From contig JAIBEZ010000094.1 of assembly GCA_019459485.1 (NCBI GenBank), forward strand, positions 1-43,732: a stretch of 43,732 bases of DNA, given 5' to 3'. The stretch is from Prolixibacteraceae bacterium. GTDB taxonomy: Bacteria; Bacteroidota; Bacteroidia; Bacteroidales; Prolixibacteraceae. This document shows positions 6,501 through 28,314 of the stretch, piece after piece (within the stretch, counting starts at the first letter, position 1; each line of letters starts with the position of its first letter). The notes below the pieces were generated by a model. The model was not told where the DNA came from. It saw nothing but the letters and a program-made list of their open reading frames with translations, and made no database searches. The position numbers and the translations under genes were made by a program.

Positions 6501-6726
6501 TCTTAAAACCTTACAATTCGGCTATACATTGCCTGAAACCATCACCAAAAAGGCTTCCATTCAAAAACTCAGAATGTTTGTGTCAGCCGATAATTTACTG
6601 ACATTAACGAGTTATGAGGGTTTCGATCCTGAAATAGCTTCCGGAGGATATACGACAATTGGTATTGACCGTGGTATTTATCCACAGGCAAGAACCATTT
6701 CTTTGGGCGCCAATATTTCTTTTTAA
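3559..6726 (+). CDS. susC: SusC/RagA-family TonB-dependent outer-membrane transporter
   Basis: Outer-membrane pore that imports oligosaccharides with energy from TonB/ExbBD and works as a lidded pair with SusD. The 1055 residues begin with a cleavable signal peptide (MKKTFLALM..FAGYAQE). A carboxypeptidase-regulatory-like domain follows (about 22-105, GVVTSADDGQPIPGVSVVVKG), then a plug with IRGIGTVNNSEPLYIVDGM (about 110-225). The large remaining beta-barrel ends in an aromatic terminus (ISF), typical of outer-membrane proteins. Length is normal for SusC. It is followed after 20 bp by susD and shares its operon. Substrate is inferred from the downstream GH3, GH16 and GH30 enzymes to be a beta-glucan. 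The symbol is the family name, not proof of starch transport. Confidence 0.95.
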   Translation: MKKTFLALMILMCSFAGYAQEIQVKGVVTSADDGQPIPGVSVVVKGTTNGIITDFDGNYTLKVPGNSTLVYSFVGMKNQEIPVNMRTVLDIVLASEFTGIDEVIVVGYGVQKKSVVTAAISRVTAEDLSKTSPSRVEDALKGKVSGVQITQSSGQPGSDSKVRIRGIGTVNNSEPLYIVDGMAVDGGIDYLNPVDIQSIEILKDAASAAIYGARAANGVVLVTTKSGTSGKTTISYDVSYGFQNPWKKKAVLNATEYMTVMNEAAINDGNNPRFSNEQIASAGAGTDWQDETFNYNAPVQSHQVSLNGGSDKVTYFLSMGYFDQEGIVGGDYGKSNFNRWSLRSNNTYNVFETTDRTFLNQLKVGANIGYSRTKSSGIETNSEYGSVLGSALAFDPTVPVYATDPASVLALHPYAVTDKNGNVFSTPPNGFQEIANPVGMLNAPSHSQGNADKFVSTFWAELDLMDGLKFKSSYGVDLAFWGNDGYTFPHFLATQGKSITQSSVNSNMNRGMTWQVENILTYSKTINEKHNLTFLLGQSAKEYKLRNLFGDDYDLLETDPSKANIDYAIADRDDERTAGGTGGFSSQTLASYFGRLDYNYAEKYIFQATVRRDGSSNFGPTNKWGIFPSLSVGWNIANESFLEDRPDWFTNLKLRGSWGKNGNERIGQFRYTSLMNGGQNYYFGSGDYSTMQYGSSPSNISNPDVKWEESEQLDLGFESSFFKNSLTFGFDYFNKKTNGMLMDQPIPAYVGKGAPIANAGDMENWGLEFETGYKLKIRDLSVNINANASYLQNKLIKLGNASGEAIYENAGASGVGSYVKGMNNEVYPFFYGYKTNGIVQNQAQANEYNTTFGESAQPGDVMFQDIAGAFDANGNAIPDGAITDADKTKIGKGMPDWTFGLSLNAEWKGFDLSAFFQGSYGNDIFDFSQRGDITAMNRPSWILDRWIGEGTSNTIPRMTAVNPNRNWRSSDLYIKDGSYVRLKTLQFGYTLPETITKKASIQKLRMFVSADNLLTLTSYEGFDPEIASGGYTTIGIDRGIYPQARTISLGANISF

Positions 6727-6746
6727 CCATCAAAATACGATAAAAA

Positions 6747-8252
6747 ATGAAAAAATATAGTTTTATACTGGCACTGGCCACAATGTTAGGGTTCTCCTCA
6801 TGTGGCGATGATTTCCTCACGATCTCGCCAACTGCTTCGCAGGAAGCTGGCGGAGATGCGACTGAAGGAGCTATTTTAGCCAACCTTGCTTCCTGTTACC
6901 AGATTCTGCTGTTTGACAGTTATGCTGCAAGCAATTACAACAGTATTGTTTTGATGTCGGACTTACGTTCTGATGACATTTACAAAGGTGGTGGTGATGC
7001 AGGCGATCAGGCACAATTATACCGCCTTTCGCAGCTGGATGCAACTGCAACCGAACTTCCTGAAGGACTTTGGAATATCTATTACAGCGGAATCAGCCGC
7101 AGCAACAATGTCATTCAGGCCTGCGAAAATGCAGTCGGAGTATCTGAAGAAAATCTGAATCAATACAAAGCGGAAGCACATTTCCTACGTGCCTACTACA
7201 CACATTGGTTGTGGAAATTCTGGGGTAATATTCCATATTTCGAAGAAGATTTGCCTGCTCCATATATGGCCAAACAATATACTGCGGATGAAATTTACGT
7301 CAAAATCCTCGCTGATATAGACTTTGCCATTGAAGGCGATAAACTCCCAATGAATACAACAGCACAAAATGCAGGACGCATAACCAAAGCTGCCGCACAA
7401 ATGCTGAAGGCAAGGGTCGTTATGTACCAGAAAGATCAGACTAAATATGCAGCCGTATTAACTGATATGGCGGAGATTATTACCAGCGGAAAATACAGCC
7501 TGGTCAGCGATTTTTCTTCCATTTGGGTGAACGCCGGAGAATTCGGTGTTGAATCTATTTTTGAAACCAATCAGCTTCCTGAAGGTAAAACGTGGGGTGC
7601 AGCATGGCAAGGTTACGGAACAAATCTTCCGGCTTTTATCTCGCCAAACACTTTGGTTGGACAGGAACCTTTTATAGGTGGCTGGGGATTCGCACCGGTT
7701 CGGACGGAAACTTACGCGATTTATGAAGAAGGTGATACTCGCCGTGAAGGGTCGATCAATAAATTTGAAGACGGAACCTACGCGGTTCGCTTCCAGAACA
7801 CTGGATTATTCCTAGGAAAGTATGCCGCCCGTAAAGGATACAATCCCCCACCGGGAGATATCGATCTGAACTTTGATAACAACCTGCGTATTTTCCGTTA
7901 TTCTGAAGTATTGCTGAATGCTGCCGAATTAATGGTTGTGAACGGTGTTGCACCTGTACAGGGTGTTACTGCACAAAATTGTCTGGATGCCATCCGGTTA
8001 CGTGCCGGTGTGGAAACAATTCCGGCTACCACTGCAAATATTAAACTGGAACGCCGTCGCGAATTTGTAGGCGAAGGAATGCGTTTCTGGGATATTGTTC
8101 GTTGGGGCGATACAAGCTTACTGACAGAAAACAAACCTGCATTTTCTTCCGTGAGAACCTGGGAAGATCATTGTAAATATCTTCCGATTCCACAATCTGA
8201 AATTGAAAAAACAGAAGGGGAATTCAAACTTCAACAAAACCCGGGTTACTAA
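6747..8252 (+). CDS. susD: SusD/RagB-family surface glycan-binding lipoprotein
   Basis: Surface lipoprotein that caps the SusC pore and binds the polysaccharide. The 501 residues start with a lipoprotein signal (LGFSSCGDD, acylated Cys at about residue 19). The all-helical TPR-like fold shows family landmarks: LYRLSQLDAT, YKAEAHFLRAYYTHWLWKFW near 140-160, RYSEVLLNAAELM near 375, and a C-terminal RRREFVGEGMRFWDIVRWGD followed by YLPIPQSEI. Acidic residues directly follow the lipid-anchoring cysteine, as in surface-export signals of Bacteroidota lipoproteins. It sits 20 bp after susC and 30 bp before the next binding protein, so the three are probably co-transcribed. Confidence 0.95.
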   Translation: MKKYSFILALATMLGFSSCGDDFLTISPTASQEAGGDATEGAILANLASCYQILLFDSYAASNYNSIVLMSDLRSDDIYKGGGDAGDQAQLYRLSQLDATATELPEGLWNIYYSGISRSNNVIQACENAVGVSEENLNQYKAEAHFLRAYYTHWLWKFWGNIPYFEEDLPAPYMAKQYTADEIYVKILADIDFAIEGDKLPMNTTAQNAGRITKAAAQMLKARVVMYQKDQTKYAAVLTDMAEIITSGKYSLVSDFSSIWVNAGEFGVESIFETNQLPEGKTWGAAWQGYGTNLPAFISPNTLVGQEPFIGGWGFAPVRTETYAIYEEGDTRREGSINKFEDGTYAVRFQNTGLFLGKYAARKGYNPPPGDIDLNFDNNLRIFRYSEVLLNAAELMVVNGVAPVQGVTAQNCLDAIRLRAGVETIPATTANIKLERRREFVGEGMRFWDIVRWGDTSLLTENKPAFSSVRTWEDHCKYLPIPQSEIEKTEGEFKLQQNPGY

Positions 8253-8282
8253 TCATTTTCTAATTTATAAAGAAGATAACGT

Positions 8283-9737
8283 ATGAAAAATATATTTAAA
8301 CTAGGAGCAATAGCATTGATTTCGATCTGTGTTATGACAGCCTGCAATCCGCAGGAAGGCTCAGACTACTCGTTGGGTGAAATGCCAACCGCCGACCAGT
8401 TGGATTTCGCCAGTGTTCCAACTGCTGCAAAACCCAATGTGATTGATTTTGCCAATACTTCAAAAGTGGCGGGTGTTGCAACATGGGAACTGGGTAACGG
8501 TGCTACCGCTAAAGGAGAATCGGTTCAGGCCATTTATCCGTTTAAAGGAGAGTACACGATTGTCATGAATCTGTATACCACCGGTGGATCAACAAGCATA
8601 ACAAAAACGATCACTGTTGCCAACGACGATATGTCTTTACTTGACACTCCGATGTACAATGCCTTAACAGGCGGGGCTTCGAATACCAGTGGTAAGACAT
8701 GGGTGTTCGATCAGTTTCACGACGGACATTTTGGTGTAGGTCCGGCAGATGGTACTTCGCCAAGTTGGTGGAGTTGCCCGGCTGAAGGAAAAACAAGAAG
8801 TTGCCTTTATTCACAGGAATTCACCTTTACCCAGGTTGGAGTAAAACTGGTATGGACCAATAACGGATCTGTTTATTCAAATGAATCCGGAAGAGCTGCC
8901 CTTGCCACTTTGGGATACCCTAATTCGGTTGTACCTCTGGACGGAGATTTTGACATTGCATATGTACCCAAAGCGGCCTATACATTTGCACTGAATGAAA
9001 CTGCAAAAACAATAACGCTGAGTAATAGTGCATTTTTTGGACATTTTGCAGGAACCTCTACCTATCAGATATTAAGTCTTTCGGATGATGAACTTTACAT
9101 AAAGTGTTTAAGTACAACTGAGGTTGGAAACGGCTGGTGGTACAGATTAATTCCAAAAGAACTGAATATTAAACCTGTTATTATTATCCCGTTGAAGGAA
9201 ATCCCATTGGCTGAAAATTTCGAATCAGTAACTCCCAAAGTAGCATTTACTTCAGAGGATATGGGTTCATTGACAAATCCATTTTATTCCAATCCGGCTC
9301 CTATTGGTGTCAATAAAACCAGCAATGTATTCCTGTATGAAAAATCAGTTGGATTCTATTCCAATGTTTTCTTTCAGGCCAACGGATACAAATTTAATTT
9401 AACGGAGCAAAACAAAGTGACGGTGAAAGTATTTATTCCATCTTACAACGATTACACTACTGAATTTGAGGTTGCAGGATCGTGGGTAAGTAATAAAAAA
9501 CTGTTGCCTCAGGTTGCCGTAAAACTCCAGAACTCAAGTCTGGCCGGAAACGCCTACACCACTCAAACAGAGATTGTGAAAGCTGATCTGGAAACCGACA
9601 AATGGATCGAACTGACATTTGATTTCAGTGGAGTGAGCTCCCGCGAAGATTATGACAAGATTGTAATTCAATTCGGAGCTGAAGGTCATGCTGGTTCCGG
9701 CATATTCTTTTTCGACGATTTTGCTTTCGGAAAATAA
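8283..9737 (+). CDS. PKD-domain surface glycan-binding lipoprotein (SusE position)
   Basis: Probable auxiliary glycan-binding protein of the locus. The 484 residues start with a lipoprotein signal (CVMTACNPQEG, Cys near 20). A PKD-like immunoglobulin fold follows (about 40-115, VATWELGNGATAKGE..YPFKGEYTIVM). A central Trp-rich beta region (about 135-295) and a C-terminal jelly-roll-like module (about 310-484, ending FFFDDFAFGK) resemble carbohydrate-binding folds. No catalytic signature is visible. It holds the SusE/SGBP position right after susD and before a hairpin terminator. Sequence families at this position diverge quickly, so function rests mostly on context. Its strands and Trp/Tyr content fit binding of a beta-glucan chain. 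Confidence 0.7.
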   Translation: MKNIFKLGAIALISICVMTACNPQEGSDYSLGEMPTADQLDFASVPTAAKPNVIDFANTSKVAGVATWELGNGATAKGESVQAIYPFKGEYTIVMNLYTTGGSTSITKTITVANDDMSLLDTPMYNALTGGASNTSGKTWVFDQFHDGHFGVGPADGTSPSWWSCPAEGKTRSCLYSQEFTFTQVGVKLVWTNNGSVYSNESGRAALATLGYPNSVVPLDGDFDIAYVPKAAYTFALNETAKTITLSNSAFFGHFAGTSTYQILSLSDDELYIKCLSTTEVGNGWWYRLIPKELNIKPVIIIPLKEIPLAENFESVTPKVAFTSEDMGSLTNPFYSNPAPIGVNKTSNVFLYEKSVGFYSNVFFQANGYKFNLTEQNKVTVKVFIPSYNDYTTEFEVAGSWVSNKKLLPQVAVKLQNSSLAGNAYTTQTEIVKADLETDKWIELTFDFSGVSSREDYDKIVIQFGAEGHAGSGIFFFDDFAFGK

Positions 9738-9770
9738 ACAGTCTGTAAATTTTAAAATAATTGTAAATCA

Positions 9771-9811
9771 AAACATTGCTCACCGGTTTGTTCCGGTAGG
9801 CAATGTTTTTT
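9771..9811 (+). terminator. Hairpin with U-tract between binding-protein and enzyme genes
   Basis: AAACATTGC (9771-9779) pairs with GCAATGTTT (9800-9808). Inside that stem a 3x3 internal loop leads to CCGG/CCGG (9783-9786 with 9793-9796) around a 6-nt loop. A run of six T follows (9806-9811). The next gene starts only 13 nt later, leaving no room for a separate promoter. The hairpin therefore probably lowers expression of the enzymes relative to SusC/SusD by partial termination, or protects the 3' end of the upstream mRNA. Confidence 0.75.
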
Positions 9812-9824
9812 AATTCAGAATAAA

Positions 9825-12086
9825 ATGTATTGTCAATTTGCCAAACGCACCCTGTTTGTTATTTTCATATTCTTAGTCGTTCTGTTTACCTCTTCATGTA
9901 AACAAACGGAATCCAATCAAAACGATATTGAAAGTCGGGTGAATAACTTGCTTTCGGAAATGACACTGGAAGAGAAAATCGGACAAATGTCGCAGATTGA
10001 TCCCGGTTATCTATCAGATGATCAAATGAATCAAACAGTTCGTGAAGGTAAATACGGTTCTTTTTTAAATATTTTTGGTGTTGAAAAGATAAATGCCCTG
10101 CAAAAGATTGCAATGGAAGAGAGCAGATTAAAAATTCCTTTGATTATTGGAAGGGATGTTATTCACGGTTACCGAACCATTTTTCCGATACCGCTGGGTA
10201 TGGCTGCCACCTGGAATCCGCAAATTGTAAAAAAAGCCTTCCGGATTTCTTCTGTCGAAGCTTCTTCTCAGGGAATCCGATGGACTTTTGCCCCGATGAT
10301 AGACATTACCTGGGATCCACGCTGGGGAAGAATAGCCGAAGGTTGCGGCGAAGATCCTTATCTTGCCTCCGCTCTTGCTAAAGCAATGGTTGAAGGGATA
10401 CAGGGAGACGACCTGACCGATCCGACAGCTGTAGCTGCATGTGCCAAACACTTTGTTGGTTATGGATTTGCTGAAGGCGGACGCGACTACAATACTACTT
10501 ATATCTCGGAGCCTGTTCTCCGGAATGTTGTGCTCAAACCTTTTAAAGCGGCAAAAGATGCCGGAGCGCTCACTTTCATGTCGGCGTTTAACGATTTAAA
10601 TGGAGTACCCACTTCAGGAAACGAATTTACACTGCGCCAGATTCTGCGCGATGAATGGCACTATGAAGGAATGGTCGTGAGCGACTGGGCTTCGGTTACC
10701 GAGATGATTTCTCATGGTTATTGTGCCAACGAAAAAGAAGCTGCTTTAAAAGCAATTACCGCAGGTGTTGATATGGAAATGTCGAGCACAAGTTATATGA
10801 ACCATCTAAAAAGCCTGATCGATGAGGGTAAAGTAAATCTGACCCTGATTGATGAAGCTGTTAAAAATATTTTGCGCCTGAAATTTAAACTGGGATTATT
10901 CGAAAATCCCTATGTAAATCCGGAAGCTGAAAAACAAATACTTGCACCTGAGTTCTTAGATCACGCGAGAACTGTAGCCAGGCAAAGCGCTGTTTTACTG
11001 AAAAATGAACTAAATACACTTCCGCTCTCCTCCGACATTTCCTCCGTGGCAATCATAGGGCCATTGGCCGATGCACCACGCGACCAACTTGGAACATGGG
11101 TTTTTGATGGTAAAGCCGAAAATTCTGTAACTCCGCTTACCGCAATTAAAGAGGTACTTGGAAATGCAAAAGTAAATTATGCTGCCGGAATGACCTATAG
11201 CCGCGACAAAAGTAAAACCGGTTTTGCCGGAGCCATTGCTGCGGCAAAAAAATCACAGGCTATTTTATTCTTTGCAGGTGAAGAATGGATTCTCTCCGGA
11301 GAAGGTCAAAGCCGCGGCGAGATTAATCTTCCGGGAGTTCAGGAAGAGTTAATTGAAGAATTGGCAAAGTTGGGAAAACCACTGGTTGTAGTTGTGATGG
11401 CAGGCCGTCCTTTAGCTATCGGGAATGTGGTTGAACAATCAAATGCACTGCTATATGCCTTTCATGGCGGATCGATGGCTGGACCTGCATTGGCTGACCT
11501 TATTTTCGGGAAAGAATCACCTTCAGGAAAATTGCCGGTAACTTTTGTAAAAGGTTCAGGACAAATTCCATTCTATTACTACCACAACAATACAGGTCGT
11601 CCTGCAAATACAAAATCATGGACCCCAATTGACAGTATCCCGGTAATTAATAGTCAGGCATCGCTGGGTTATAAATCCTTTCATCTCGATTACGGATTTA
11701 CACCGCTATTTCCATTCGGATATGGCTTAAGCTATACAACATTCAAATACAGCAATCTTATCCTTTCATCAACCGAGATGGCCAGTAATGGTAACCTTAC
11801 GATTAAAGTATCAGTATTAAATGATGGTGATATTGATGCCGATGAAATCGTTCAGCTATACATTCGCGACAGGGTTGGAAGCATAACCCGTCCGGTTAAA
11901 GAACTGAAAGGATTTAAACGAATTCATCTAAAAAGTCGCGAAACGGTTGGTGTAACATTCGAACTTCCGGCATCGGAACTTGAATTTTTCAACGGGAAAG
12001 AAAATGTAATTGAAAGTGGTGAATTTGACCTCTGGATCGGACCCAATTCGGACGAGGGATTGCACAGTGAGTTCAGTATAAAATGA
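9825..12086 (+). CDS. bglX: GH3 beta-glucosidase lipoprotein (BglX-like)
   Basis: Glycoside hydrolase family 3 exo-enzyme expected to release glucose from beta-linked gluco-oligosaccharides. The 753 residues carry a lipoprotein signal (LFTSSCKQT). The N-terminal TIM barrel includes IPLIIGRDVIHGYRTIFP and WDPRWGRIAEGCGEDPYLAS. The nucleophile is Asp287 in MVVSDWASV. The alpha/beta sandwich has GEEWILSGEGQSRGEINLPG, with the acid/base probably in its Glu-rich loop. The C-terminal fibronectin-III-like domain ends in ESGEFDLWIG. Length and order match BglX-type enzymes without a PA14 insert. It is followed by the GH16 gene after 9 bp, and all three hydrolases are lipoproteins. Linkage preference (beta-1,3 versus beta-1,6) cannot be read from the sequence. 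Confidence 0.93.
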   Translation: MYCQFAKRTLFVIFIFLVVLFTSSCKQTESNQNDIESRVNNLLSEMTLEEKIGQMSQIDPGYLSDDQMNQTVREGKYGSFLNIFGVEKINALQKIAMEESRLKIPLIIGRDVIHGYRTIFPIPLGMAATWNPQIVKKAFRISSVEASSQGIRWTFAPMIDITWDPRWGRIAEGCGEDPYLASALAKAMVEGIQGDDLTDPTAVAACAKHFVGYGFAEGGRDYNTTYISEPVLRNVVLKPFKAAKDAGALTFMSAFNDLNGVPTSGNEFTLRQILRDEWHYEGMVVSDWASVTEMISHGYCANEKEAALKAITAGVDMEMSSTSYMNHLKSLIDEGKVNLTLIDEAVKNILRLKFKLGLFENPYVNPEAEKQILAPEFLDHARTVARQSAVLLKNELNTLPLSSDISSVAIIGPLADAPRDQLGTWVFDGKAENSVTPLTAIKEVLGNAKVNYAAGMTYSRDKSKTGFAGAIAAAKKSQAILFFAGEEWILSGEGQSRGEINLPGVQEELIEELAKLGKPLVVVVMAGRPLAIGNVVEQSNALLYAFHGGSMAGPALADLIFGKESPSGKLPVTFVKGSGQIPFYYYHNNTGRPANTKSWTPIDSIPVINSQASLGYKSFHLDYGFTPLFPFGYGLSYTTFKYSNLILSSTEMASNGNLTIKVSVLNDGDIDADEIVQLYIRDRVGSITRPVKELKGFKRIHLKSRETVGVTFELPASELEFFNGKENVIESGEFDLWIGPNSDEGLHSEFSIK

Positions 12087-12095
12087 CTTTAAAAT

Positions 12096-12941
12096 ATGAG
12101 AACAGCCTTTCTTTTAAATCTGATATTCAGTTCATTCGTAATACTAAGCTGCGCGGATGACAATAAATCACAACCACCCGTAATTACACCGGGAACGGAC
12201 ACCGAAACCGGAACAAACACACTTGTCTGGAGTGATGAATTTGATTATACAGGTCTTCCTGATGCATTAAAATGGAGTTATGATACTGAAGGAAACTCCT
12301 CGGGTTGGGGAAACAACGAATTACAACATTATACCAGTGGTCGCCTGAAAAATTCGGAAGTAAAAAGCGGTTTCCTATACATTCATGCGATTAAGGAAGA
12401 ATTTGAAGGAAAGAAATACACATCGGCCCGCCTGATTAGCAAAGGGAAAGGCGATTGGTTGTATGGCCGAATGGAAATTAAGGCTAAACTTCCTGAAGGT
12501 CGCGGAATGTGGCCGGCCATTTGGATGCTTCCAACCGACTGGGCTTATGGTGGCTGGCCTGCAAGTGGAGAAATTGATATCATGGAAAATGTGGGATACG
12601 ATCCCTGGGTTATTGTTGCTTCGGCTCATACCGAATCCTACTATCACGTCATTGGCACCCAGAAAAGCAATAAAATGACGGTAACTGATTGCTACACCAA
12701 TTTCCATGTGTATGCTCTTGAATGGGAAGCTGGCGAATACCGCGTTTATGTGGATGATAAACTTTACTTCACGTTTAAAAACGAAGGCACAGGATACAAA
12801 GCCTGGCCATTCGACAAACGGTTTCACCTGCTGCTAAACGTTGCTGTTGGAGGAAACTGGGGTGGTGTGAAAGGTGTTGATGATACCATTTTCCCTCGTT
12901 CCATGGTTGTTGATTATGTAAGGGTTTACCAGAAGAAATAA
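12096..12941 (+). CDS. GH16 endo-beta-1,3-glucanase (laminarinase-like) lipoprotein
   Basis: Family 16 retaining endo-glucanase likely to cut beta-1,3-glucan at the cell surface or in the periplasm. The 281 residues have a lipoprotein signal (VILSCADDN) and a short linker rich in Thr/Pro/Gly, then one jelly-roll catalytic domain (about 43-281). The catalytic motif is GEIDIMENVG, with Glu159 as nucleophile, Asp161, and Glu164 as acid/base. Upstream WPAIWMLP and downstream LLLNVAVGGNWGG are typical of laminarinases and lichenases. The motif has the extra Met (ExDxxE) of the beta-bulge type, as in laminarinases. The gene is tightly packed between the GH3 and GH30 genes (9 and 10 bp), so the three form one transcription unit. 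Confidence 0.93.
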   Translation: MRTAFLLNLIFSSFVILSCADDNKSQPPVITPGTDTETGTNTLVWSDEFDYTGLPDALKWSYDTEGNSSGWGNNELQHYTSGRLKNSEVKSGFLYIHAIKEEFEGKKYTSARLISKGKGDWLYGRMEIKAKLPEGRGMWPAIWMLPTDWAYGGWPASGEIDIMENVGYDPWVIVASAHTESYYHVIGTQKSNKMTVTDCYTNFHVYALEWEAGEYRVYVDDKLYFTFKNEGTGYKAWPFDKRFHLLLNVAVGGNWGGVKGVDDTIFPRSMVVDYVRVYQKK

Positions 12942-12951
12942 CCGAATAAAA

Positions 12952-14391
12952 ATGAGAAACATGAATTTAATTGTCACTTTTCTGATCGTACTTTTTGGCT
13001 GTGCCGATAATACAAAAAGCATTTATACTCCTGATAAGCCAAATCCTTCGGATGAAACAGTTCAAACGCAAGTAGAAGCCTGGATTACCAGCCCCTCGAA
13101 AAATGTGCTTTTTCAGAAACAAAATACCAGCCTGAAATTTACCAACGTCGTCAACCAGCAACCAACCATTACGGTTGATACCACCACCACATTTCAGACC
13201 ATCGATGGCTTCGGAAATTGCCTGACCGGTGGAAGCGCCACTTTACTTCACCGGATGAACAATACCAACAGGGCTCAGATCCTGAAAGAACTGTTCGCAA
13301 CTGATGGAAATAATATTGGCCTCAGCTACCTGCGCATCAGTATTGGCGCGTCTGATCTGAGCGATCGCGTATTTTCATACAACGATTTGCCTGCAGGAGA
13401 AACAGATGCTGAAATGACCAAATTCAGTATTGAACCTGAAAGAGCAGATTTAATTCCGGTTTTAAAAGAAATTCTGGCAATTAATCCAACCATCCAAATT
13501 ATGGGATCGCCATGGTCGGCCCCAAAGTGGATGAAAACGAACAATGCATCGAAAGGCGGCAGTTTAAAACCTGAATATTTTGATGCGTACGCCAAATATT
13601 TCGTGAAATATATTCAGGCGATGAAAACAGAAGGAATCACCATTGATGCAATTACCATCCAAAATGAACCGCTGCATCCGGGCAACAACCCGAGCATGTA
13701 CATGACTGCTGCTGATCAGGCAGATTTCATCAAAAAAAGCCTGGGACCAGCATTCGCCGCGGCAAATATTAAAACCAAAATCATTGTTTACGATCACAAC
13801 GCCGATCGAATCGATTACCCGCTTGAAATCCTGAACGATCCGGAAGCAGCAAAATATGTGGATGGTTCGGCTTTTCATCTCTATGGCGGATCAATTGACG
13901 AATTGAGTAAAGTACACGAAGCATTTCCAGACAAGCACCTGTATTTTACAGAACAATGGGTTGGTGCGCCCGGAAATATGGCTGGTGATCTCGCATGGCA
14001 TGTACGCACCCTTATTATTGGCGCAACCCGCAACTGGTGCCGGAATGTACTGGAATGGAACCTTGCAGCCGATCCGGCAAGCGATCCTCACACAGTTGGC
14101 GGATGCGACCAGTGTTTGGGAACAATAACCATCAATGGGAACGTTGTGACACGCAATCCGGCTTATTACATTCTCGCACACGCTTCAAAGTTTGTCCGCC
14201 CGGGTTCAGTCAGAATCAACTCAAATCTTCCGGACAAATTACCCAACGTAGCTTTTAAAACTCCTGAAGGAAAAAAAGTATTGATTGTACAGAACGACAG
14301 CGAAACGAGTCAGCAATTTAATTTGCAATTCAAAGGAAAAACGGTCACAACTTCATTGGACAAAGGAGCTGTTGGAACTTATGTGTGGTGA
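12952..14391 (+). CDS. GH30 glycosidase lipoprotein, probable endo-beta-1,6-glucanase
   Basis: Family 30 enzyme, most likely acting on beta-1,6-glucan or beta-1,6 branches of laminarin. The 479 residues carry a lipoprotein signal (IVLFGCADN). The (beta/alpha)8 barrel begins with FQTIDGFGNCLTGGSA and YLRISIGASDLSD. The acid/base is Glu239 in TIQNEPLHPG and the nucleophile Glu334 in LYFTEQWVG. The barrel is flanked by the small beta-sandwich typical of GH30 (KVLIVQNDSET near the C terminus). GH30_3 proteins are recalled from characterised Bacteroides beta-1,6-glucan loci; the subfamily here is my inference. A glucosylceramidase-like label is possible from family naming but unlikely in this setting. 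It ends the enzyme operon. Confidence 0.88.
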   Translation: MRNMNLIVTFLIVLFGCADNTKSIYTPDKPNPSDETVQTQVEAWITSPSKNVLFQKQNTSLKFTNVVNQQPTITVDTTTTFQTIDGFGNCLTGGSATLLHRMNNTNRAQILKELFATDGNNIGLSYLRISIGASDLSDRVFSYNDLPAGETDAEMTKFSIEPERADLIPVLKEILAINPTIQIMGSPWSAPKWMKTNNASKGGSLKPEYFDAYAKYFVKYIQAMKTEGITIDAITIQNEPLHPGNNPSMYMTAADQADFIKKSLGPAFAAANIKTKIIVYDHNADRIDYPLEILNDPEAAKYVDGSAFHLYGGSIDELSKVHEAFPDKHLYFTEQWVGAPGNMAGDLAWHVRTLIIGATRNWCRNVLEWNLAADPASDPHTVGGCDQCLGTITINGNVVTRNPAYYILAHASKFVRPGSVRINSNLPDKLPNVAFKTPEGKKVLIVQNDSETSQQFNLQFKGKTVTTSLDKGAVGTYVW

Positions 14392-21509: not shown

Positions 21510-21517
21510 TAACTTTG
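21510..21517 (+). promoter_or_regulatory. -7 promoter box of the lytS/lytTR pair
   Basis: TAACTTTG matches TAnnTTTG exactly, 16 nt before the ATG at 21533. It also shows that the in-frame TTG at 21515 cannot be the translation start, because it lies inside the box. Confidence 0.55.
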
Positions 21518-21532
21518 TTAAAAACGACTACA

Positions 21533-22303
21533 ATGGAAACTCAACCTGATCTATCTTCTTTTCTTGTTCTTGGAAGTATTTTCGTACTTCTTCTATGTTT
21601 GACTGCAATCATTTATTTGATCTTCAAGCTAAATAATTCGGCGAAAGAAAATCAAGTTCTGGGATTTAAATATCAGGAAATGGAAAGCAAATACAACCAA
21701 ATAGAACTCGAAAATCTGGATTCCAGGCTAAATCCACACCTTTTCAAGAACATACTTAACTCCGTTCAGTCACACGCCTACCAAACCTATTTTGCGCTCG
21801 ATAAATTATCCAATGTGCTGGATTATATCCTCTACGACAGTCGTAGTAAATTCGTCACTCCGAAGCAGGAAGTAGAATTTGCGCTCAATTTGATTGAAAT
21901 CAATAAAATTAAACTAAGCCCGCTGTTCGATTTAAAAGTAAAACTAAAGACCAATGAAAATGAGCCGCTGTATCACCAACGTTTGCTGGCGCCTTTTATT
22001 TCTACTGATTTAATTGAAAATGCCTTCAAACATGCCGATCTGCAAAGCGGAGATGCTTTTATTTCTGTTATCTTCGAGTTTAACGATAGCAATTTTAAGC
22101 TTACCGTTGCCAACAAAGTATCAGCGAAATCGCCCATCAGGAAAGAAAAAAGTGGTTTTGGAATCGAAACGCTCGAACAACGCCTGAAGATCATTTACAA
22201 CGATCATTTCAAGTTCGACCACTTTATTGAAGACAACGTACATATCGCTCACTTAAAAATTAACCTGCTTGACTACAAGGCTAAAATGCTTGCTGCTCGA
22301 TGA
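21533..22303 (+). CDS. LytS-family sensor histidine kinase
   Basis: Sensor kinase of the LytS/AgrC-like class that phosphorylates the LytTR regulator encoded next. The 256 residues contain one N-terminal transmembrane helix (about 9-33), a short coiled coil, and a His_kinase (PF06580) domain. In it RLNPHLFKNILNSVQSHAYQ carries the phospho-acceptor His69. The ATP-binding region has LIENAFKHAD (N box) and GFGIETLEQRLKIIY (G box). There is no separate sensory domain, so the signal is probably sensed in the membrane or via partners. Start ATG 21533 lies just behind the -7 box. The 3' end overlaps the regulator gene by 35 bp, which implies translational coupling. Confidence 0.9.
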   Translation: METQPDLSSFLVLGSIFVLLLCLTAIIYLIFKLNNSAKENQVLGFKYQEMESKYNQIELENLDSRLNPHLFKNILNSVQSHAYQTYFALDKLSNVLDYILYDSRSKFVTPKQEVEFALNLIEINKIKLSPLFDLKVKLKTNENEPLYHQRLLAPFISTDLIENAFKHADLQSGDAFISVIFEFNDSNFKLTVANKVSAKSPIRKEKSGFGIETLEQRLKIIYNDHFKFDHFIEDNVHIAHLKINLLDYKAKMLAAR

Positions 22304-22988
22304 TGAATTGCCGGGGCTTTCGTACCTGAAATTGCTTTGTGAACAAATACCCGAACTCGAAGTGATCAGGGCTTTTAACGATCCGAATATATTTTTGAAT
22401 GAATTCCCCGGACTGGAATTCGATTTGTGCATACTTGACATCGAAATGCCCGGTACCAGCGGAATTGAATTAGCCGCCCTACTTAAAAACAAGCCGGTTA
22501 TTTTTACCACAGCTTACAAAGATTATGCAACAGATGCCTTCGACCTTGATGCCATCGACTATGTAATAAAACCGGTAAAACCAGAACGACTCCAGCAAGC
22601 TGTAAACAAAGCTATAAACCGGATAAATTCCGTCAGCAAAATCAGGAAACAAATCCGTTTAAATACCGACAAAGGAAACGTCCAGATAATTTTCGATCAG
22701 TTGGTTTACATACACACCTCCGAAATCGACAGCCGGGACAAAACAGCCCTGTTGGAAAATGGAGCATTCCTGCAATTAAAGAACATTACATTTGAAAAAC
22801 TCATTTCCGTTTTACCTTCGGACCAGTTTTGCCGTGTCAACAAAAAAGAGCTCATTTCACTGAACAAAGTTTTATATTTTTCAAACAATCAGATTACCAC
22901 CAACATTTTTCTACAGTCAGAAAAGCCTTTGGTACTTACCCTGGGCGAAACTTACCGGAACGAATTCATAATGAAAACAAGCAGATAG
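22269..22988 (+). CDS. LytTR-family response regulator
   Basis: DNA-binding response regulator, partner of the LytS-type kinase. The 239 residues have a receiver domain (about 6-122) with acidic LLLDDE, phospho-acceptor Asp in CILDIEMPGTSG, TTAYKDYATDAF, and DYVIKPVKPERL. A C-terminal LytTR domain follows (about 138-236, DQLVYIHTSEID..FCRVNKKELISL). No ATG exists before the receiver core: the frame is closed by TAA at 22254-22256 and the only reasonable start is TTG 22269. The overlap with the kinase suggests re-initiating ribosomes. Targets are not evident; no LytTR binding repeat was recognised in the window. Confidence 0.9.
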   Translation: MTTRLKCLLLDDELPGLSYLKLLCEQIPELEVIRAFNDPNIFLNEFPGLEFDLCILDIEMPGTSGIELAALLKNKPVIFTTAYKDYATDAFDLDAIDYVIKPVKPERLQQAVNKAINRINSVSKIRKQIRLNTDKGNVQIIFDQLVYIHTSEIDSRDKTALLENGAFLQLKNITFEKLISVLPSDQFCRVNKKELISLNKVLYFSNNQITTNIFLQSEKPLVLTLGETYRNEFIMKTSR

Positions 22989-23367: not shown

Positions 23368-25638
23368 ATGAAGAAATTTAGAAACGTCTTTTTTTACATC
23401 TGCGTAATTGGCAGTTTTTCGTGGCTTATCCATTGGATTGCACAAAAAGGAAAAGTGCTGGAATTTGGAAGGCACGTACACATGCCCGAAGTGGGTGAAA
23501 GTCAGTGGCTGGAATTTGTAAATTCGTTTTTGCAAAACCTGACACACCCGTTGGCCATACTGCTGGCTCAAATAATAACTATAATAATAACCGCCCGCAT
23601 ACTTGGATGGGTATGTAAAAAAATAGGTCAACCCACGGTAATAGGCGAAATTATTGCAGGCATAGTGCTGGGGCCCTCGCTCCTAGGCATGTATTTCCCT
23701 GAATTTTTCAACACATTATTTCCTGACCACTCAATGGGCAACCTCCAGTTTTTAAGCCAGATCGGGCTAATACTGTTTATGTTTATGGTTGGGATGGAAC
23801 TCGATTTGAAGACACTAAAAAACAAAGCCCATGATGCAGTCGTCATCAGTCATGCAAGCATTATTTTCCCTTTTGCGCTAGGCATGGGCTTAGCGTATTT
23901 TATCTATCAAACTTTCGCCCCCTCAGGCGTAGAATTTCTATCGTTTGGCTTATTCCTCGGCATTGCAATGAGCATAACCGCCTTCCCGGTACTGGCCCGC
24001 ATCGTGCACGAAAGAGGAATTCATAAAACAAGGTTGGGAGCCATTGTTATTACGTGTGCCGCAGCCGACGACATCAGCGCCTGGTGTTTGCTTGCCGCAG
24101 TAATCGCCATCGCAAAAGCCGGTTCGTTTGTGAGTTCACTGTACACCATTGCCATTGCTGTCGGCTATGTTTTCCTGATGCTCAAAATGGTTAAACCATT
24201 TTTGAAACGGGTTGGCGATTTATACCCATCGCGCGAAACGATGAGCAAGCAAATTGTCGCCATCTTCTTCCTGACACTGATCGTTTCATCGTACACAACC
24301 GAAGTTATCGGCATCCATGCGTTGTTTGGCGCATTTATGGCTGGCGTTATAATGCCCGAAAGCACCAAGTTCCGAAATATATTTATTGAAAAGGTGGAAG
24401 ATGTAGCACTTGTGCTCTTACTCCCATTGTTTTTTGTCTTCACCGGACTGCGCACTGAAATTGGATTGCTCAACGAACCTTATCTCTGGAAAATAACCGG
24501 ACTGATCATCCTGGTCGCAATAACCGGTAAATTCATCGGAAGCGCTCTTGCAGCCAAATTTGTCGGGCAAAACTGGCGCGACAGCCTTACCATCGGTGCA
24601 CTGATGAATACCCGGGGACTGATGGAACTGGTGGTACTTAACATTGGGTACGACCTTGGTATCCTCTCTCCTGAAATTTTTTCGATGATGGTCATTATGG
24701 CTTTGGTCACTACTTTCATGACAGCTCCGGCCCTGGACTTAATTAATCGAATATTCAGGAAAAAGCCACACGTGATCTCCGAACAGGTGAACCAACTCAT
24801 AAAATATAAGATTATTTTATCTTTTGGTAATCCGGAAATGGGCAAATCGTTGTTACAGCTAGCCAATCGTTTAGTAAAAAAGCAAACTGAAAATGCGACG
24901 GTTACTGCGCTGCACTTATGCCCGAACAGCGTGCTGCACCATTATAACCTGGAAGAATATGAAAACGAAAGTTTTTCGCCGGTCATTCAGGAATCAAAAA
25001 TACTGAACCAGAAAATTACGACCCTTTTTAAAGCCACCGATGACATTGACGCTGACATTGCAGAAATAACCAACAAAGGTGATTTTGACCTTCTGCTAAT
25101 TGGTATCGGGCATTCGATTTTTGAGGGAACTCTTTTGGGCAGAATACTGGGATATACCACCAGCATCATTAACCCTGACCGCCTTATTCATAAAGTTTCA
25201 GGAAAAGAAAAACTGTTTAGCAACTCTCCTTTCGACGACCGCACACAAAACATACTTTCAGGAAGCAAAGTCCCGGTCGGAATTTTGATAGACAAAAATT
25301 CCGGAGATTGGGACCAAATTATTGCTCCTATATATTCCGGAAACGATGGTTTTCTGATTAAATACCTCCAACGCCTGATTAAAAATTCGGAAGCACAAAT
25401 TACAGTAGCCGATCCGAAAGGGCTAACCAAAAGCCTCTCTGAAATAAAAGAAGCCATCAGGGCAATTGAACACGAAGCTCCCAATCATATTACCCTTGAT
25501 CAGGTAAACGTGATTGATGAAACATTTATCCAAAAATTTCAGTTAATGATTGTATCTGCCGAAGGGTGGAAAACGCTCGTTGAATCACGAAGCAGTTGGC
25601 TCAGCGTGGCACCATCAATACTGATACTGCGGGATTGA
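23368..25638 (+). CDS. CPA2-family cation:proton antiporter with C-terminal Usp-like region
   Basis: Inner-membrane monovalent cation/proton antiporter. The 756 residues have an N-terminal helix, a short external loop, and about twelve transmembrane helices (about 60-465). Fingerprints are GQPTVIGEIIAGIVLGPSLLG, FMFMVGMELDL, SITAFPVLARIVHERG, and AAADDISAWCLLA with an Asp-Asp pair, as in electrogenic Na+/H+ exchangers. LMNTRGLMELVVLNIG follows. The cytosolic remainder (about 475-756) shows two universal-stress-protein-like halves (KIILSFGNPEMGKSLLQLA; VPVGILIDKNSGDWDQIIAP) that could bind nucleotide and gate the channel. It is followed after 37 bp by the GpgS fusion gene, which points to osmotic or salt response. 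Ion specificity is inferred. Confidence 0.9.
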   Translation: MKKFRNVFFYICVIGSFSWLIHWIAQKGKVLEFGRHVHMPEVGESQWLEFVNSFLQNLTHPLAILLAQIITIIITARILGWVCKKIGQPTVIGEIIAGIVLGPSLLGMYFPEFFNTLFPDHSMGNLQFLSQIGLILFMFMVGMELDLKTLKNKAHDAVVISHASIIFPFALGMGLAYFIYQTFAPSGVEFLSFGLFLGIAMSITAFPVLARIVHERGIHKTRLGAIVITCAAADDISAWCLLAAVIAIAKAGSFVSSLYTIAIAVGYVFLMLKMVKPFLKRVGDLYPSRETMSKQIVAIFFLTLIVSSYTTEVIGIHALFGAFMAGVIMPESTKFRNIFIEKVEDVALVLLLPLFFVFTGLRTEIGLLNEPYLWKITGLIILVAITGKFIGSALAAKFVGQNWRDSLTIGALMNTRGLMELVVLNIGYDLGILSPEIFSMMVIMALVTTFMTAPALDLINRIFRKKPHVISEQVNQLIKYKIILSFGNPEMGKSLLQLANRLVKKQTENATVTALHLCPNSVLHHYNLEEYENESFSPVIQESKILNQKITTLFKATDDIDADIAEITNKGDFDLLLIGIGHSIFEGTLLGRILGYTTSIINPDRLIHKVSGKEKLFSNSPFDDRTQNILSGSKVPVGILIDKNSGDWDQIIAPIYSGNDGFLIKYLQRLIKNSEAQITVADPKGLTKSLSEIKEAIRAIEHEAPNHITLDQVNVIDETFIQKFQLMIVSAEGWKTLVESRSSWLSVAPSILILRD

Positions 25639-25675: not shown

Positions 25676-27190
25676 ATGATCTCTATCATCATACCTACAT
25701 TGAACGAAGAAGCTCACATCGCGGCGGTAGTAAACTTTGCCAAAAGTCAGCCAAATGTGAGCGAGGTAATTGTTGTTGATGACAAATCAATCGACCAGAC
25801 TGTTCCTATCGCACATGAAAACGGCGCGAAAGTGATCACCAGCACAAAACTTGGGAAGGGTACTTCGATGAAAGACGGGTTACTTTATGCCGCCAACGAA
25901 ATCGTTGTCTTTCTCGATGGAGACATTGATCCTTATCCTCCCGATACCATAAAATCACTTTCCGATCCGATCATTTGCGGAGAAGCAGATTTCGTAAAAT
26001 CATCCTTCAGCCGAAATGCCGGTAGGGTGACCGAATTGGTTGCAAAACCGCTCCTGAGTATTTTCTATCCCGAACTACTGCGATACAACCAACCGCTGAG
26101 CGGAATGATTGCGGGGAAAAAATCACTTTTGAAACGACTGGATTTCAGGGACGACTATGGCGTTGACATTGGCATCCTGATAGATATGCACTTGATGAAA
26201 GTACGGATGATGGATGTCGAAATCGGCTACATCGAAAACAAAAGCAAACCTTGGCAAGAGCTTGGCAAAATGAGTAAAGAAGTGTCTCAGTCAATTATTT
26301 CGAAGGGAACTTCAACGAAAAAACCGTCCTACCTTTTAGAAGAACCTGGCACGAGTAAAAATATCCCGTCGCAAATAGAATATGCATTAAAAAACCATCT
26401 CCTGAAGTTTAACAAACTGGTAATCTTCGACATGGACAATACGATTCTTAGGGGAAGATTTATTGATGCCTGCGCAAATTCATTTGGATTCATGGATAAA
26501 CTGATGGACATTCGCTCATCGGCAACAAACGGGATTTGCATGACCAAACAGGTAGCCAAACTTCTGAAAGGAAAATCGGTAGCGGATTTGATTTCAGTTG
26601 CGGATAACATACCCATCGTGGAAGACACGCAGCTGGTCGTTTCCCTGCTCAAAAAACGAGGCTATGTCGTTGAAATTATTTCCGACAGTTACGACTGCAT
26701 CACCGAACACATTAAAAACAAATTAGAGATGGATTTTTCGCTCTCAAATGAATTGGAATTCTCTAAAAGCATTTGTACCGGTGAAGTGAAAATTCCATCC
26801 TTTTTCTTTAGCAGCAGCGACAGCTTATGCAAACATCCGTTGTGCAAGACAAATGCAATGACGGACATTTTAAATAAATACAACATAAAAAAGGAGAACT
26901 GCATCGCCATTGGCGACAGCCTGAACGATCTTTGCATGATTAAAGAAGCCGGAATTGGCATCGCTTTTTGCCCCGAAAACGAATTATTGAAACTACATGC
27001 CGATGCCATCATTTCTACGCCAAATTTCACCGAATTATTAATCCACGCTGCAAAACTTGACTCAAAAAATAAGGCGGCAACCAAAGTAAAAAAGTTTGTT
27101 TCGGGCCTTTCCCAACAAGGATATGGTTTCTTCCAAATGCTCTCAAATGCGATTCGCCAGAAAACAAAAGAAAAAATACACCCCAACTAG
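25676..27190 (+). CDS. GpgS-like GT81 synthase fused to HAD-IB phosphatase
   Basis: Predicted bifunctional enzyme. The N-terminal half would transfer glucose from NDP-glucose to 3-phosphoglycerate and the C-terminal half would dephosphorylate the product to glucosylglycerate, a compatible solute. Residues 1-215 form a GT-A domain with IIPTLNEEAHIAAVV, metal-binding D81-G-D83, and strings that I recall from GpgS: GRVTELVAKPLL (117-128), NQPLSG (138-143), YGVDIGILID (161-170), and KPWQELGKMSKEV. Residues about 248-460 are a HAD phosphatase with FDMDNT (nucleophile D252, D254), ISDS (about 335-338), a Lys region, and GDSLND (413-418). The total of 504 residues is about one GpgS plus one SerB-like phosphatase. 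Separate GpgS and GpgP are the common arrangement. The sugar could be mannose instead, so the substrate remains inferred. Confidence 0.8.
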   Translation: MISIIIPTLNEEAHIAAVVNFAKSQPNVSEVIVVDDKSIDQTVPIAHENGAKVITSTKLGKGTSMKDGLLYAANEIVVFLDGDIDPYPPDTIKSLSDPIICGEADFVKSSFSRNAGRVTELVAKPLLSIFYPELLRYNQPLSGMIAGKKSLLKRLDFRDDYGVDIGILIDMHLMKVRMMDVEIGYIENKSKPWQELGKMSKEVSQSIISKGTSTKKPSYLLEEPGTSKNIPSQIEYALKNHLLKFNKLVIFDMDNTILRGRFIDACANSFGFMDKLMDIRSSATNGICMTKQVAKLLKGKSVADLISVADNIPIVEDTQLVVSLLKKRGYVVEIISDSYDCITEHIKNKLEMDFSLSNELEFSKSICTGEVKIPSFFFSSSDSLCKHPLCKTNAMTDILNKYNIKKENCIAIGDSLNDLCMIKEAGIGIAFCPENELLKLHADAIISTPNFTELLIHAAKLDSKNKAATKVKKFVSGLSQQGYGFFQMLSNAIRQKTKEKIHPN

Positions 27191-27237: not shown

Positions 27238-28314
27238 TTAAAAGATTTCCTTCTTCAGCAACTGATATTCATGTTCGAAATTTGGGGTAAAAACACCTTT
27301 ACCAATGTTTGATTCAATTTGCTTTGGTGTCCAAAACCGGCCTTCAAGGACTTCATCGGAATGAAGGTGAATCGATTTAAAATCGTGGGTGGTAAATACA
27401 TAAACCAATTCACATTCCAGCTCGCTATCCCAGCGATAGGTTTTTACCAGTCTTGCGGAAAATTGTGTCAGTCCGATTTCTTCGAAGGCTTCGCGTTTCA
27501 GTGCAGTTTCAAGTGTTTCTCCCACTGAAATATGCCCGCCCACCGCGGTGTCCCATTTGCCTGGCTGAACCAGTTTGTTCATCGGGCGTTTCTGCAAATA
27601 AACATGTTTTTGGTTGTTGAAAACATGGAGATGAACTACAGGATGCAGCAGTTTTTCGCCACGGTGACATGCCGAACGGGGCGCTTTGCCGATAATTTCG
27701 CCTTGCCCGTTCACCAATGGAAGCCACTCTTCCTCATCAGGAATTACCACCTGTTTGCGCAATTTCATTTTCTGTTTTACGAATTCGTATCCGAAAACCA
27801 CGGCAAACAAAATGTAGAACAAGCCTCCGCTGATAAAGGCCCATGCTTCGTTCGAGAGATAAAATGCTGAATAAAATACAAGTATGGTGTGAAACAGAAA
27901 TACAAAAAACATCAGTTGCATCGTCTTTCGGAACTGCGCCACCTGCTGATCGTTCATTTCCATATCCTTCATGTATCGCTTTGTCATCAGCCCGATGATA
28001 TTCAATTTTGAGAAGGCCGATACACCAAGCACTGCGCAAAGAATCAATTCAATAAGACCTGGCTTCAGTTTAAAAAAAATATCGTTGTCAAGCAAAATAG
28101 ATACAGAACCGAGCGCCATCAGCAAACCGGTATCAACCAACACAAACCGGTCGAAGCGTTTTTCCTTGATCCAGATCCAAACCATTTCGGCAACCCCGAT
28201 AACAAGGGCGGCAACCAAACCAGCACGGGTTCCCCAAATCCCGTCAACGGCGATAAAAACAAAAAGGGGAATAAATCCCGGCAGAAGTTTTTTGAGTAAT
28301 TCTGATTTGCTCAT
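27238..28314 (-). CDS. YciB-like membrane domain fused to a Nudix hydrolase
   Basis: A 358-residue two-part protein. Residues about 1-180 have five to six transmembrane helices, with a segment DNDIFFKLKPGLIELILCAV that resembles the YciB/intracellular-septation-A family (heme/cell-envelope-linked inner-membrane protein). Residues about 195-358 form a Nudix hydrolase with the box GGHISVGETLETALKREAFEEIGL in one run (about 276-299), preceded by HPVVHLHVFNNQKHVYLQKRP, as in the Idi/YfcD-like Nudix group. The Nudix part would hydrolyse a nucleoside-diphosphate-X or prenyl-diphosphate at the inner face of the membrane. The start codon is 3 nt from the T-tract of a terminator, so its expression is unusual. 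I have not met this pairing in a named protein. Confidence 0.8.
   Translation of the reverse strand: MSKSELLKKLLPGFIPLFVFIAVDGIWGTRAGLVAALVIGVAEMVWIWIKEKRFDRFVLVDTGLLMALGSVSILLDNDIFFKLKPGLIELILCAVLGVSAFSKLNIIGLMTKRYMKDMEMNDQQVAQFRKTMQLMFFVFLFHTILVFYSAFYLSNEAWAFISGGLFYILFAVVFGYEFVKQKMKLRKQVVIPDEEEWLPLVNGQGEIIGKAPRSACHRGEKLLHPVVHLHVFNNQKHVYLQKRPMNKLVQPGKWDTAVGGHISVGETLETALKREAFEEIGLTQFSARLVKTYRWDSELECELVYVFTTHDFKSIHLHSDEVLEGRFWTPKQIESNIGKGVFTPNFEHEYQLLKKEIF

Follow-up and report, generated by a model that had tools for sequence, protein, structure and literature searches.

A predicted bifunctional hexosyl-3-phosphoglycerate synthase/phosphatase encoded by a single gene in Bacteroidota

A single gene of a Prolixibacteraceae bacterium encodes a glycosyltransferase (GT) resembling glucosyl-3-phosphoglycerate synthase (GpgS) fused to a phosphatase of the HAD-IB type. 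The gene lies in a stretch of 43,732 nucleotides, here called the window (Table 1). The fusion is real and maintained, and represents a conserved family of fused enzymes that is as yet uncharacterised. In the reading that we favour, and hold with somewhat better than even confidence, the protein is a hexosyl- (probably glucosyl-) 3-phosphoglycerate synthase/phosphatase that makes a sugar-glycerate compatible solute. The N-terminal domain would attach a hexose to O2 of 3-phosphoglycerate, the donor most likely being an NDP-glucose. The C-terminal domain would remove the 3-phosphate through a phospho-aspartate intermediate, with Asp252 as the nucleophile and Asp254 as the acid/base, and the released product would be glucosylglycerate (or mannosylglycerate), an ionic compatible solute with which the cell would meet salt or osmotic stress. 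A two-step synthesis and dephosphorylation by one polypeptide had been proposed in a preliminary description of this DNA; a coupled synthase and phosphatase is indeed likely, whereas the donor, the acceptor and the product are parts that we infer. If correct, this would be a one-gene route to a sugar-glycerate osmolyte in some Bacteroidota and a further GT/phosphatase fusion beside MgsD and ggpPS, with a phosphatase recruited from serine metabolism through changed recognition at C2. A single enzyme could then also be used as the catalyst for this osmolyte, which is of applied interest.

Table 1. The fused gene, its domains and its upstream neighbours in the window.
Feature	Position	Strand	Basis or remark
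Fused GT81-like glycosyltransferase/HAD-IB phosphatase	25676..27190	+	Uninterrupted ATG ORF, 504 aa
GpgS-like GT-A domain, residues 1-213	25676..26314	+	Alignment to solved GpgS; Foldseek
Linker, residues 214-243	26315..26404	+	Low confidence, pLDDT <50 at 215-243
HAD-IB phosphatase domain, residues 244-455	26405..27040	+	Family models, alignment, Foldseek
Helical C-terminal tail, residues 456-504	27041..27187	+	Present in the window's own subclade (G000, G403, G409, G398)
CPA2-type cation:proton antiporter, 37 bp upstream	23368..25638	+	PF00999, 217 bits
Histidine kinase (PF06580) and response regulator, upstream of the antiporter	21515..22988	+	Syntenic in G403, G409, G398

The preliminary description had read the protein as one polypeptide with a GT81/GpgS-like first half and a HAD-IB second half. 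The strings that it quoted are present in the translation, and each element of this layout is borne out by the family models and structure matches described below, by the intact frame, by full-length fused homologues and by purifying selection on both halves. The Pfam models above cut-off are PF00535 and, among HAD models, PF00702, PF08282, PF12710 and PF06888. An AlphaFold model, built from a 17-row alignment, has a mean pLDDT of 81.4 and a pTM of 0.48; the latter value means that the model does not fix how the two domains lie with respect to each other. That alignment holds 17 fused proteins from 16 genomes, after removal of duplicates and of a contig-cut copy (G401/L007), and the other 16 proteins are 37-92% identical to that of the window. 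Compared with G403, G409 and G398, respectively, dN/dS is 0.067, 0.053 and 0.080 for the GT half and 0.128, 0.093 and 0.109 for the HAD half, dS being mostly saturated for more distant relatives. The 30-codon linker gives variable values against the same genomes (0.09-0.38), and the C-terminal tail is looser (0.32-0.51 against the three nearest full-length relatives). An assembly join is excluded: the fusion recurs at full length in the 17 aligned proteins, purifying selection is strong on each half, and the GT halves fall into a single clade apart from stand-alone GpgS.

For the first half, the glucosyl-3-phosphoglycerate synthase model NF010496 is the top NCBIfam match (residues 2-216, 161 bits; 164 bits for the half alone), with about twice the score of the second-best GT family (78 bits) and below its own equivalog cut-off of 262 bits. 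Four other fused proteins score 159-192 bits with this model. The best PDB sequence matches are mycobacterial GpgS, and Foldseek places GpgS structures first (target TM 0.65-0.73, rmsd 1.6-2.1), the first 35 matches all being GpgS or entries of its mycobacterial family. Placement in GT2 without similarity to GT81, which the preliminary description had named as evidence against its proposal, was thus not what was found. In M. tuberculosis GpgS numbering, which was fixed on His258 and agrees with the residues named in PMC2581804, Lys114, Asp134, Arg167, Gly184, Arg185, Val186, Gln207, Leu209 and Met269 are unchanged in all 17 fused proteins, and Asp136, Thr187, Ser210, Gly211 and Tyr229 in 16. 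The residues that PMC2581804 places in the donor pocket include Lys114, Asp134, Asp136, Leu209, Ser210, Tyr229, Met269 and Glu232, and all of these except Glu232 are each kept in 16 or 17 of the 17. On the acceptor side, Val186 N and Thr187 of GpgS bind the carboxylate of 3-phosphoglycerate (PMC2581804), and the GRVT motif to which they belong is complete in 16/17. The sites of the window protein are K61, D81xD83, R113, GRVT at 116-119, QPLSG at 139-143, Y161, D164, N188 (at the His258 site) and M199.

For the second half, the phosphoserine phosphatase model TIGR00338 (SerB) is the top NCBIfam match (residues 239-455), its 134-136 bits lying below the equivalog cut-off of 144.15, and the HAD-IB subfamily model TIGR01488 passes its cut-off (75 bits against 45). 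The best PDB sequence matches are the phosphoserine phosphatases of M. jannaschii and H. pylori; in Foldseek, single-domain SerB structures reach a target TM of 0.83-0.86, and two ACT-containing SerB2 chains 0.45-0.46. The catalytic motifs are present. In M. jannaschii SerB numbering, Asp13, Ser99 and Asp171 occur in 17/17 fused proteins, Asp11 and Lys144 in 16 and Asp167 in 15, with all six together in 15/17, and the motif-IV Asn170 is retained in just 13. By alignment, the catalytic residues of the window protein are D252, D254, S336, K391, D414, N417 and D418. The residues that hold the substrate are another matter. In SerB, Glu20 binds the amino group and Arg56 the carboxylate of phosphoserine, according to PMC6321591, and both are retained in the seven ACT-SerB proteins aligned (7/7). 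No fused protein has Glu at the first site (Arg in 13, Ser in three, Gly in one; R261 in the window protein) or a basic residue at the second (Ile in 12, Val in five; V293). In addition, the cap is about four residues shorter than that of SerB, with Met43 falling within the gap; Gly100 is replaced by Asp, Glu or Asn, so that the SGG of SerB becomes S(D/E/N)S in most fused proteins; and a CxHxxC insert (385-390 in the window protein) directly precedes the motif-III Lys site in 15/17. These features suggest a relative of SerB that acts on a different substrate.

The synthase half departs from standard GpgS, and these departures bear on which sugar and which acceptor it would use. At the site of His258, which probably binds the metal, 15 fused proteins have Asn, one has Val and one keeps His. 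In all 17, Glu212 (the glutamate of PLSGE) is Met, Ile or Leu, Asn260 is Ser, Met or Ala, Arg256 is Ile, Leu or Val, and an acceptor-side loop, in the stretch from Arg167 to Gly184, is shorter by about 14 residues. Also without exception, Tyr165 has become Phe, Tyr213 Ile or Val, and Glu232 Asp. By contrast, the six stand-alone Bacteroidota GpgS aligned keep Tyr165, Glu212, Tyr213, Glu232, Arg256, His258 and Asn260. The same two steps with GDP-mannose as the donor, alone or besides the glucose donor, would yield mannosylglycerate, and the changes at 165, 213 and 232 would suit this alternative, as the counterparts in mannosylglycerate synthase (MgS) are Phe129, Leu167 and Asp192 (PMC2581804); the universal loss of Glu212 points the same way, and the mannosyl-3-phosphoglycerate synthase of Rubrobacter xylanophilus is both a sequence and a structure match (3f1y, ranked seventh). 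Nevertheless, of seven positions at which GpgS and MgS differ, the fused proteins are MgS-like at those three and GpgS-like at the other four (Ser163 in 14/17, Val186 in 17, Ser210 in 16 and Tyr229 in 16), and mycobacterial GpgS outscores the R. xylanophilus enzyme. Ser210 has been proposed to act against mannose (PMC2581804), yet it is a weak marker, since M. hassiacum GpgS has Gly there. On balance, a mannose donor appears unlikely. Another phosphorylated acceptor, for instance glycerol phosphate or a different phospho-acid, leading to glucosylglycerol or an undescribed solute, is a little easier to entertain and still improbable: the acceptor-side loop, Asn260 and Arg256 are lost in the GT half and Arg56 in the HAD half, and some heterotrophs make glucosylglycerol with a fused phosphatase/synthase, as described in PMC10873239, but the almost universal GRVT motif argues for an acceptor with a carboxylate. 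We consider it very unlikely that the first half is a GT2-clan enzyme that glycosylates lipids or the cell envelope and merely carries a phosphatase of unrelated function; dolichyl/polyprenyl-phosphate transferases (AglJ family) do match at 78-81 bits, but the GpgS score is double this, GpgS leads the structure matches and the neighbouring genes concern ion transport. Taken together, the kept and changed residues make hexosyl transfer onto a carboxylate-bearing acceptor likely and glucose the probable sugar, with metal and acceptor handling predicted to be altered. As for the glucosyl-3-phosphoglycerate product of the preliminary description, the GpgS-like synthase stands, though it is of a non-standard kind. 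With Asn in place of the probable metal-ligand His, no acceptor-side loop and a donor pocket that is MgS-like in part, "hexosyl" is a safer label than "glucosyl", and 3-phosphoglycerate is the predicted acceptor.

The phosphatase half raises the question of whether it is simply the phosphoserine phosphatase of the cell, with the GT half as an accessory. Two findings prompted the question: no HAD family is closer than SerB, and the window's genome has no further SerB match above 37 bits. In a SerB-model search of 140 genomes of the window's family, moreover, 16 had a true SerB over the cut-off and eight the fusion, and none had both. However, 116 of the 140, including the one with the contig-cut fused copy (G401), have no match at E <=1e-16, and the same holds for 85 of the 103 more complete genomes; as most genomes match nothing, joint absence is uninformative and gives no sign that the fusion replaces SerB. 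True SerB proteins score 264-285 bits in this search and fused ones 127-141, and the loss of both phosphoserine-binding residues in 17/17 argues against a role in serine metabolism. We therefore rejected this role, which is extremely unlikely. The preliminary description had held that a match to a serine phosphatase clade would undermine its proposal; formally such a match exists, SerB being the closest family, and it is the replacement of Glu20 and Arg56 that disfavours the serine role. Separately, a SerB-like match of 76.8 bits lies within a 651-aa open frame in another genome (G190:C5:39007-39630), perhaps another SerB-containing fusion.

Under the favoured reading of a sugar-glycerate synthase/phosphatase, a SerB-like domain in which the Glu for binding the amino group is lost would have been recruited to a glycosyl-3-phosphoglycerate. 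Such a domain is a natural recruit, since phosphoserine and glycosyl-3-phosphoglycerate share a 3-phospho-C3-acid skeleton and differ at C2, which carries an amino group in one and an O-glycosyl group in the other. This exchange at C2 would explain both the kinship with SerB and the loss of Glu20. How the HAD half would recognise the carboxylate is left unexplained, as no fused protein has a basic residue at 293; Arg261 could take over this binding, although four of the 17 fused proteins do not have this Arg. Other points that count against the favoured reading are the score of 164 bits against a cut-off of 262, the losses of His258, Asn260 and the loop, the incomplete conservation of Asn170 (13/17), the degenerate copies described below and the absence of TIGR03852 at E <=1e-20 from all 12 fused genomes searched (12/12), a model which we take to represent the GH13_18 glucosylglycerate phosphorylase, the catabolic partner; of 14 control genomes, only E. 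coli matched it, below cut-off, which limits the power of this search. A more far-reaching version, which we put forward tentatively and judge doubtful, is that a one-chain sugar-glycerate pathway was invented separately in Bacteroidota. In this case, a phosphoserine-phosphatase-like domain would have been rebuilt for a glycosylated substrate analogue (Glu mostly to Arg, loss of the carboxylate Arg, gain of the CxHxxC insert) and joined to a synthase with a rebuilt metal and acceptor site, the solute may differ from both glucosylglycerate and mannosylglycerate, and the gene would move between lineages and settle repeatedly beside ion-transport genes.

Among known systems, the synthase half shares with GpgS (CAZy GT81) the fold, most donor-pocket residues and the GRVT and QPLSG motifs, and differs from it in lacking about 40-50 N-terminal residues besides the 14-residue loop and the PLSGE Glu, in having Asn at the site of the probable ligand His258, and in the attached phosphatase. 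The HAD half shares the fold and catalytic motifs of SerB and differs in the substrate residues, cap, S(D/E/N)S motif and insert noted above. Functionally, the nearest known system is MgsD of Dehalococcoides, which combines a GT55 synthase with a HAD-IIB-type phosphatase. It is a bifunctional mannosylglycerate synthase, with glycosyl-3-phosphoglycerate synthase and phosphatase in one polypeptide, according to PMC8490865. The window protein is like MgsD in having synthase and phosphatase domains, here with predicted activities, in one ORF. No mannosyl-3-phosphoglycerate synthase family appears among the 11 Pfam matches listed for it at E <=1, and the HAD-IIB model TIGR01484 stays below its cut-off of 41.8 bits (28.8 bits; 31.8 for the half alone). 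The analogy with MgsD drawn in the preliminary description is thus apt for the predicted function, but both domain families appear to differ; the fused protein is best read as a parallel to MgsD with a SerB-related phosphatase. Another fused synthase/phosphatase for a compatible solute is the glucosylglycerol-phosphate phosphatase/synthase ggpPS of Marinobacter and others, whose GT belongs to family GT20 and so to a different family. In ggpPS, the phosphatase domain comes first (PMC10873239), whereas the window protein has the synthase first and a different predicted acceptor. Elsewhere in Bacteroidota the arrangement consists of two genes, gpgS and an adjacent HAD-type gene of a different HAD class than the fused form: in 7/9 loci looked at, stand-alone gpgS is adjoined by a HAD-type gene recognised by a DxYGT motif. 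These neighbours are candidates for a separate phosphatase pair; those of L018 and L035 have weak HAD-IA matches, that of L018 over the PF00702 cut-off, and the stand-alone GpgS of L016 scores 391.9 bits with NF010496, over its equivalog cut-off. In L016, L018, L019, L021, L031, L034 and L035, gpgS lies between a gene that is peptidase-like by eye and the HAD gene (DFYGT or DVYGT). No description of a GT81-HAD fusion was found in the open-access literature searched; the fusion would be a version, as yet uncharacterised, of a two-step pathway whose type is known, set apart by its SerB-related phosphatase.

Fused homologues in Bacteroidota, which the preliminary description had suggested looking for, do exist. 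Fusions covering both halves occur in at least 8 of 395 genomes of the phylum (at least nine genes, with three candidates scored per genome) and in 9 of 101 relatives, where one copy is truncated at the end of its contig; both sets contain the window's genome, and all homologue sets overlap. Within the window's family, the SerB-model search found the fusion in 8/140 genomes. A short-pattern scan of genome contigs with the window protein, which reaches close relatives only, returned five loci, all from Bacteroidota, and in none of 93 matching plasmid records did a match reach 80% coverage of the query. In the class of G135 (195 genomes, up to eight candidates scored in each), G135 alone has the fusion and the other matches are stand-alone GpgS or SerB. 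In an unrooted quick tree, the GT domains of the 17 fused proteins and 10 stand-alone GpgS fall on opposite sides of a split with an SH-aLRT of 100. The copies of G212, from another family, and of L006, from a bin labelled Saprospiraceae, nest with copies from the window's family, the group having a support of 82 in the full-length tree and of 91 in that of the GT domains; this points to either lateral transfer or mis-binning. Long branches were flagged for G135, G391 and the second copy of G300. The G391 copy (L072 8531-9904, minus strand) has lost Asp136, Thr187 and Tyr229 in the GT half and Lys144 and Asp167 in the HAD half, and the second G300 copy (L073 7936-9396, minus strand) has lost Asp11 and Asp167 in the HAD half; both may be pseudo-enzymes or regulators.

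The preliminary description had linked the upstream antiporter to salt or osmotic stress, and an ion-transport setting is supported by its recurrence in other neighbourhoods. The antiporter of the window, in which TIGR00932 and Usp matches fall below cut-off, stands beside the fused gene in G403, G409 and G398 too, in synteny with the window (G000). Across 13 gene contexts, which were grouped by hand and are not fully independent, as G412 and G413/G404 share some neighbours, a PF00999 antiporter adjoins the fused gene or is one gene away in three. Counted within about 3 kb, these 3/13 contexts compare with 0.10 expected (P ~1e-4); with the window lineage, which suggested the test, left out, 2/12 compare with 0.085 expected (P 0.003), genome sizes being rounded in both sums. 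The window's genome has seven PF00999 copies, and G496 and G212 one each, so that in the latter two the adjacent antiporter is the sole match in the genome at E <=1e-8. Downstream of the fused gene lie, in G496 (L006), this antiporter and one of the NhaA type and, in G212, a DUF389 gene followed by the antiporter.

In all, 39 chosen neighbours of fused genes were scanned, with a copy-number control for PF00999 alone. Other transport genes lie near further copies: TrkA, TrkH and an amino-acid permease precede the fused gene in G418, G190 has a Na/Ca exchanger as well as a CitMHS transporter, and G300 a CLC channel with DUF389 and Usp genes; G253 also has Usp. Sensor kinase or regulator genes occur in G412, near the G413/G404 gene and in the window lineage; those of G300 and G190 are assigned through their clustering with these. 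The G412 context has them with no transporter among its scanned neighbours, and no ion transporter was found among 13 neighbours scanned in G391 (six), beside the second G300 copy (four) and in G135 (three); those of G391 are outer-membrane, amylase-like, tRNA synthetase, glyoxalase, AraC and Hsp70 genes. DUF389 is also near the fused gene in G413/G404 and G091, so that this membrane protein is near or adjoining in four contexts (L067, L069, L071, L077, L078), identified by scan in L077 and L069 and by clustering in L067, L071 and L078; it may have to do with the solute or with ions. In the window itself, the gene following the fusion (27238-28314, minus strand) joins a membrane domain like IspA (septation protein A) to a NUDIX domain that resembles IPP isomerase below cut-off; this fusion looks uncommon, and the gene is syntenic in three relatives. 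Further upstream, at 3559-14391 on the plus strand, a SusC/SusD-like pair and a GH30 enzyme probably form a polysaccharide utilisation locus.
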